Shown here piece after piece: positions 57,165 to 58,262 of a stretch of 64,000 nucleotides of DNA. The translations under genes were made by a program, and so were the position numbers. Location: positions 103,642 through 167,641 of the forward strand of contig CP011806.1 in assembly GCA_001664505.1 (NCBI GenBank), written 5' to 3'. The stretch comes from Acidobacteria bacterium Mor1. Its GTDB lineage: Bacteria > Acidobacteriota > Polarisedimenticolia > Polarisedimenticolales > Polarisedimenticolaceae. Position 1 is the stretch's first letter. Every line of letters starts with the position of its first letter. The notes below the pieces were generated by a model, which saw nothing but the letters and a program-made list of their open reading frames with translations, had not been told where the DNA came from and did no database searches.

Positions 57165-58262
57165 TCATTTCAGGATTTCGCTGCGGTCGTGGACCATGCT
57201 CCAGTTGAACCAGAAGGTGTCGAAGCCCCCCAGCGGCCGGACGGCGTCGCCGGCGTCGGCGGCGAATCCGCCCGATTCCGGGTCGAAGGAGGCGCCGCTG
57301 GGCTGGTGCAGCCAGGTATCCCCCTGCTTCTCGAACCGGCCGCTTGCGGCGACGAAGGCGGCGCTGGAGTGGAAGATCTCGACCCCGTCCGGGCGGTAGA
57401 GGAAGACCGCCTGCCCGCCGGCGTCGAAACTCGCCCCGGACCCCTGGAACCCGCCGAAGGGGGCGGCGTAGGCGGTGTCGTCCAGTTCGAAGGCGAACAC
57501 CGGCTCCTTGGTCGGCAGCCGGTCGTCGGCCGCCTCGCTGCCGCGGAAGCCCTCGTCGGAGCCGAAGTACTTCTCGTAGGGATTGCGGGCCACGTGCTGG
57601 ATCGCCTCGCCGCTCTCCTCGTCGACGACGCTCAGCACCAGGGTGTCGGGATGCTCGGCGATCCAGTCCTTCCACTGGACCTTGCGGCCGCTGGGTAGCT
57701 CGTCCATGCGTGTGCCCTTGAACGGTCCGCTCAGCGCCTCGCCGGTCATGATCGACCAGTAGGAGTCGGTCTCCTTGTCCTGCATCACCAGCGACGAGTG
57801 CCAAAGCCCGCCCGAGGCCTCGAAGTTCAGTTCCTTCCCGTCATAGTCGCGGCCGTACACGACGGCCGTGTTGGCCAGCGGTCACCACACCGCGGCGAAG
57901 CTGTGTTCGCCGCTGCGGTCGTTGACGATCTCGTGGCGGTTGAGCAGGTTCAGGCTGTAGGCCTTGGCCTGGCCCCCGACCACCACGCCGAGCATCCAGG
58001 CCTCGTCGGCCACGTTCGCCTCGGCCCCGGCGACGAAGACCGGTTCGTCGATGGAGGCGATGCCCCCCCGGGGGATCAGCTGCTCGAACTCGCCGGGCAG
58101 GTCCTCGGGCAGCACGATGTCGTCCACGCCGGCGCGTCCGGATTCGGTCTCGGCGCCGGAGGCATCGGTCTCCGACGCCGGCTTTTCCGCGGCGCAGCCG
58201 CTGCCGGCCAGCAAGGGCAGCGCCAGGGCCGCCGCTGCCAGGGTTCGCAAGTCCAGTCTCAT
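57165..58262 (-). CDS. DUF3179 lipoprotein with one in-frame TGA (candidate selenoprotein)
   Basis: Read through one TGA (57882-57884), the frame gives 365 residues starting at ATG 58262 (GAGGGAGA upstream). A lipoprotein-like signal (ending LLAGSGC) precedes a DUF3179 domain: LLNRHEIVND, then VW-TGA-PLANTAVVYGRD, GGLWHSSLVMQDKETDSYWS and, near the end, GFDTFWFNWS. The family normally has CPLC or similar here, so the TGA (codon 127) replaces the first Cys and the second is Ala. Frame and family similarity continue on both sides of the TGA. A 7-bp hairpin lies downstream at the spacing used by bacterial SECIS elements. The alternatives are a pseudogene or a sequencing error. It follows a two-component/ABC operon by 72 bp. 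Confidence 0.85.
57850..57868 (-). promoter_or_regulatory. candidate bacterial SECIS hairpin downstream of the in-frame TGA
   Basis: On the minus strand CGGCCGT and ACGGCCG form a perfect 7-bp stem with the loop CGTGT. The loop begins 21 nt after the TGA, and the guanine is the second loop base, at +22. The published bacterial SECIS model asks for a stem-loop with a loop of about 3-14 nt, a G in the first two loop bases, and 16-37 nt between codon and G. This hairpin meets all of these. It is GC-rich sequence, so chance similarity is possible. Confidence 0.5.

Follow-up and report, generated by a model that had tools for sequence, protein, structure and literature searches.

Selenocysteine or Stop in a DUF3179 Gene

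Does the lone TGA within an otherwise open DUF3179 gene of Acidobacteria bacterium Mor1 specify selenocysteine (Sec), or does it end a damaged gene? The gene lies in a 64,000-nucleotide stretch of contig CP011806.1 (the window), where we assign the following features.

57165–58262, minus strand: 365-codon gene predicted to encode a DUF3179 selenoprotein, with Sec at codon 127 and TGA as its stop
58260–58262 and 57165–57167, minus strand: ATG start and TGA stop, respectively
58194–58262, minus strand: putative N-terminal export signal with Cys23 at its end, as read from the sequence
57882–57884, minus strand: in-frame TGA, predicted Sec codon (residue 127); the same codon is TGA in 16/16 other distinct UPLA-clade genes
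57850–57868, minus strand: SECIS hairpin, 7-bp stem CGGCCGU/ACGGCCG with loop CGUGU, assigned from covariation against a synonymous-codon null and missing from sense-codon homologues
57645–58010, minus strand: probable N-terminal Rieske-like domain (residues 85–206), which holds Sec, from the AlphaFold model and structural matches
57168–57545, minus strand: C-terminal domain (residues 240–365), a degenerate copy of the N-terminal domain, from profile comparison and structure

Rereading the sequence bears out the original prediction that a single TGA (codon 127) interrupts an intact 365-codon DUF3179 frame at the first Cys of the CPLC motif, with the second Cys replaced by Ala, such that the residues around Sec127 read W-U-P-L-A-N-T-A-V-V-Y. 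With the TGA read through, the product matches PF11376 (DUF3179) over residues 66–359 (E 8e-54, profile positions 2–290 of 292), and its score of 183.5 bits, compared to a Pfam gathering cut-off of 27, places it in the family across the whole domain. No NCBIfam model matches the window protein, phage records hold no match to it, and an Rfam scan of 56–60 kb at gathering cut-offs gave none. Standard annotation would cut this gene short after codon 126.

Selenocysteine Pathway in the Genome

The original prediction had seen no selA, selB or selC in the window, and these genes do lie elsewhere in the same genome, which is a single contig of 5.985 Mb at 99.98% completeness. A genome-wide search, in which missing sel genes would have spoken against Sec, recovered all four outside the window: selA (516 bits), selB (330 bits), the tRNA-Sec gene selC with its UCA anticodon (72.7 bits), and selD (358 bits, C1:2910488–2911429). 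The selD gene carries one TGA of its own near its N-terminal end, reading U-A-S-K (L062, about 2400–2415), which we take to be the usual Sec site of SelD proteins, where Sec or Cys is usually found; selD is thus another Sec gene in this genome, independent of the DUF3179 gene. We note that selA scores above the cut-off in 53 of 60 relatives, which leaves co-occurrence with little discriminating power, and that no selA was detected in one of the genomes with a TGA-type DUF3179 gene (G018).

A Covarying SECIS Hairpin Downstream of the TGA

The bacterial SECIS model places the loop 16–37 nt downstream of the UGA, with a G in the first two loop positions (PMC13188914). The perfect 7-bp hairpin proposed at the outset fits this model, as it starts 14 bases past the UGA, with the loop beginning at the 21st base and G at loop position 2. 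The same rule also holds for 1.4% of positions drawn at random in this GC-rich window and for 1.7% of its TGA trinucleotides, and the folding energy is ordinary (z −0.2); the window hairpin by itself is weak evidence, and becomes strong only via comparison.

This comparison covers 28 distinct UPL-type genes, which form on average 6.43 of 7 Watson–Crick stem pairs, compared to 4.25 ± 0.17 under a null of synonymous-codon resampling with local codon usage (maximum 4.86 in 2000 resamplings), with 15 of the 28 stems being perfect where 0.5 are expected. Standard pairs are changed on both sides at five of the seven stem pairs (for example, pair 21/31 goes from CG to TA in seven genes), and the loop reads NGU in 28/28. 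Genes of the UTLC/USLC type have a different SECIS placement (CCACACC-GGUCU-GGUGUGG), with 7/7 pairs in eight genes where the null gives 5.25 ± 0.30, and sense-codon homologues average 3.1 pairs for the UPL-type stem (25 rows) and 2.4 for the UTLC/USLC-type stem. Judged by this covariation among homologous sequences, the hairpin is a SECIS element. The invariant GGUCU loop of the UTLC/USLC genes resembles that of the E. coli formate dehydrogenase SECIS. An N-terminal membrane region is found in the UTLC/USLC selenoproteins L027, L029, L030, L031, L035, L037, L038 and L074.

Plain read-through of the UGA, or its decoding as Trp or Cys, would likewise keep selection on the downstream frame while using no selenium. 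However, TGA is the normal stop codon of both the DUF3179 gene itself and the neighboring response regulator, Cys occupies the position in several homologues, and the hairpin conforms to the model for SECIS elements of bacteria (PMC13188914) in a genome with a full Sec pathway, all of which make a selenium-free reading very improbable.

Conservation of the TGA across Homologues

A scan of public genomes returned 13 loci, and the 11 close-group members among them that span the site all have TGA within a UPLA motif. In addition, among 396 genomes searched from the same phylum, nine (the window's genome included) have the gene, with one TGA in 9/9. Loci in genomes of this phylum are identical to ones in named Acidobacteriota MAGs, which places the window in Acidobacteriota. 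Once duplicates are removed, 16 other distinct UPLA-clade genes remain, at about 45–62% identity and from several bacterial phyla (mostly Acidobacteriota, with one from candidate division KSB1, one from a Halieaceae MAG, and one from a further MAG). The codon is TGA in 16/16, with no other stop in the domain, and the 16-row UPLA clade is purely Sec with a tree support of 100/100. The choice between TGA and Cys, which the original prediction had left to an alignment of homologues, thus falls on TGA, kept with a conserved hairpin in the whole clade.

The original prediction also cautioned that a one-base error or a fresh pseudogene would look the same on the DNA, which is true of a lone genome, as TGA is one base off TGC and TGT, but a sequencing error or recent pseudogenization (i.e., a Cys, Trp or Arg codon altered by chance) is excluded for practical purposes because the TGA is conserved in these 16 genes from separate assemblies, together with a hairpin that covaries and a frame that is open apart from this codon. 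On this sequence evidence, the TGA at codon 127 almost certainly encodes Sec, and the protein belongs to a family already known to include selenoproteins.

Across the DUF3179 family as a whole, U, C, S, N, H and G all occur at the Sec position. Mapping the Sec label on the family tree requires at least 3 changes, compared to 18.3 for shuffled labels; read from this tree, there are at least three gains or losses of Sec within DUF3179, with two SECIS placements, a pattern that is unreported in the literature searched. One CSIA form inside a Sec clade (L026, genome G032) looks like a Sec-to-Cys reversion. Other relatives have His (HPLC/HPLS in L079, L081 and L085), Asn (NPLC/NPLS in L033, L078 and L036) or Ser (SPLC/SPLS/SPLT in L076, L077 and L082) at this position, and the replacement of the redox Cys/Sec in this branch suggests non-redox or metal-binding paralogues.

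A UPLA Form within a Known Selenoprotein Family

DUF3179 selenoproteins were reportedly first described from a symbiotic deltaproteobacterium of Olavius algarvensis. The original prediction took a Sec form of DUF3179 to be new, which we correct here: prokaryotic selenoprotein lists in two reviews include a "DUF3179 domain-containing protein" (pfam11376) with the motif UxxC/T (PMC9312934 Table 1, PMC13188914), and members have the NCBI product name "DUF3179 domain-containing (seleno)protein". The published motif does not describe the window protein, where Ala stands three residues after Sec, as it does in the whole clade. Going by the sequences compared, what is new is this UPLA (UxxA) clade without a partner Cys, which is not in the published motif lists and is unreported in the literature searched.

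The window protein has no other Cys past residue 23, and Cys23 itself may be a lipoprotein cysteine. Sec is likewise the sole Cys-type residue in most mature proteins of the UPLA clade, with L051 and L055 having a Cys pair in the C-terminal domain.

A Duplicated, Probably Rieske-like Domain

The AlphaFold model of the window protein has a mean pLDDT of 96. Comparing the profiles of its N- and C-terminal halves gives a score of 100.5 over 111 columns, against a shuffled maximum of 16.8, and DUF3179 is a tandem duplication of one domain. The best 17 structural matches of the N-terminal domain all contain Rieske domains, with Z up to 6.9 (rmsd 2.7, 91 aligned), and Rieske proteins also top the list for the separately modeled C-terminal domain (Z 4.4, rmsd 3.6, 84 aligned); in both cases Z is below 8, which may reflect no more than a common arrangement. 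The C-terminal domain further aligns to the Rieske profile with a score of 31.2 over 70 columns (null maximum 13.1), and the N-terminal domain does not rise above the null. The duplicated domain is thus probably Rieske-like, as modeled.

The Rieske ligands C-x-H ... C-x-x-H are absent from the window protein, the mature form of which has no Cys pair. When the C-domain/Rieske profile alignment is carried over to the N-terminal domain via the N/C alignment, D-x-x-T-x-S-x-W takes the place of the ligand loop, some 35 residues C-terminal to Sec, which itself sits on an upstream β-turn and thus does not appear to be a leftover cluster ligand. We also considered His110 and Sec127 as the Rieske His and Cys ligands, whose 17-residue spacing they share, and dropped this assignment because the ligand loop aligns to D-x-x-T-x-S-x-W.

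A sequence search found no solved structure, and no PDB entry matched the whole model significantly in Foldseek. Against viral models (BFVD), the whole model has one Foldseek match, an uncharacterized protein of the giant virus Indivirus ILV1 (A0A1V0SD44, E 1e-7). The literature searched contains no relevant link between Rieske folds and selenocysteine proteins, and our reading of the fold, which is probably a tandem Rieske-like duplication without iron–sulfur ligands and with Sec on a β-turn, is unreported there.

Proposed Function

In line with what is established for Sec incorporation in bacteria, SelB would bind the SECIS hairpin and deliver Sec-tRNA(UCA) at UGA codon 127, and, after export, the protein would fold into two Rieske-like β domains without iron–sulfur ligands, with Sec127 at the β-turn of the first domain as the single redox-active or nucleophilic group. 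As the mature protein has no partner Cys, resolution of the oxidized selenium would depend on an outside thiol or reductant rather than on an internal Se–S bond, in a one-selenol cycle of the glutathione peroxidase type. We give roughly even weight for and against the window protein being such an exported oxidoreductase with a one-selenol redox role. The broader scenario, in which a duplicated Rieske-like scaffold lost its iron–sulfur site and gained a new thiol/selenol site at the β-turn, with the UPLA clade as the extreme case of an exported one-selenol enzyme with no other Cys that depends on outside reductants, is more tentative, and falls somewhat short of an even chance. We know of no enzymatic activity for any DUF3179 protein.

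Alternatively, Sec127 could be a metal or cofactor ligand rather than a catalytic redox group, in a metal-binding or electron-carrying protein that descends from a Rieske-like scaffold, with His110 nearby in sequence. Rieske proteins being the best matches of both domains, the invariance of His110 in the family alignment, and the His, Asn or Ser of paralogues at the Sec position are all consistent with this, but the replacement of the Rieske ligand loops by D-x-x-T-x-S-x-W means that the known cluster site is gone, and we consider a ligand role unlikely. It would rival only the functional part of our interpretation, and Sec incorporation would stand.

Upstream of the gene lie a DesK-like kinase and a LuxR-type regulator, and downstream a Ser/Thr kinase. 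Among homologues, no neighbor is conserved save permease-like ORFs in a few, and thus the gene context gives no functional clue. Returning to the one-selenol proposal, with one Sec and no other Cys, any redox chemistry must come from the single selenium, which makes the function directly testable. An uncharacterized selenoprotein family thereby gains a clean representative with a single Sec, along with a likely origin for its fold.

Comparison with Known Systems

Rieske [2Fe-2S] ferredoxins and oxygenases (PF00355) resemble DUF3179 as the best structural matches for both domains and in the C-domain profile alignment; in contrast to them, DUF3179 lacks C-x-H / C-x-x-H, has its Sec elsewhere, and is duplicated. 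The published DUF3179 (PF11376) selenoproteins share the Pfam family and a Sec in a CxxC-type motif, but have UxxC/T where the window protein has UxxA (UPLA), in a clade where most mature proteins have no other Cys. The UPLC and USLC/UTLC selenoproteins of relatives keep the partner Cys, and the UTLC/USLC genes differ further in a SECIS that is 5 bases nearer the UGA, with its invariant GGUCU loop, and in membrane segments before the domain; like the window gene, however, all of these have TGA at the aligned codon and a SECIS directly downstream.
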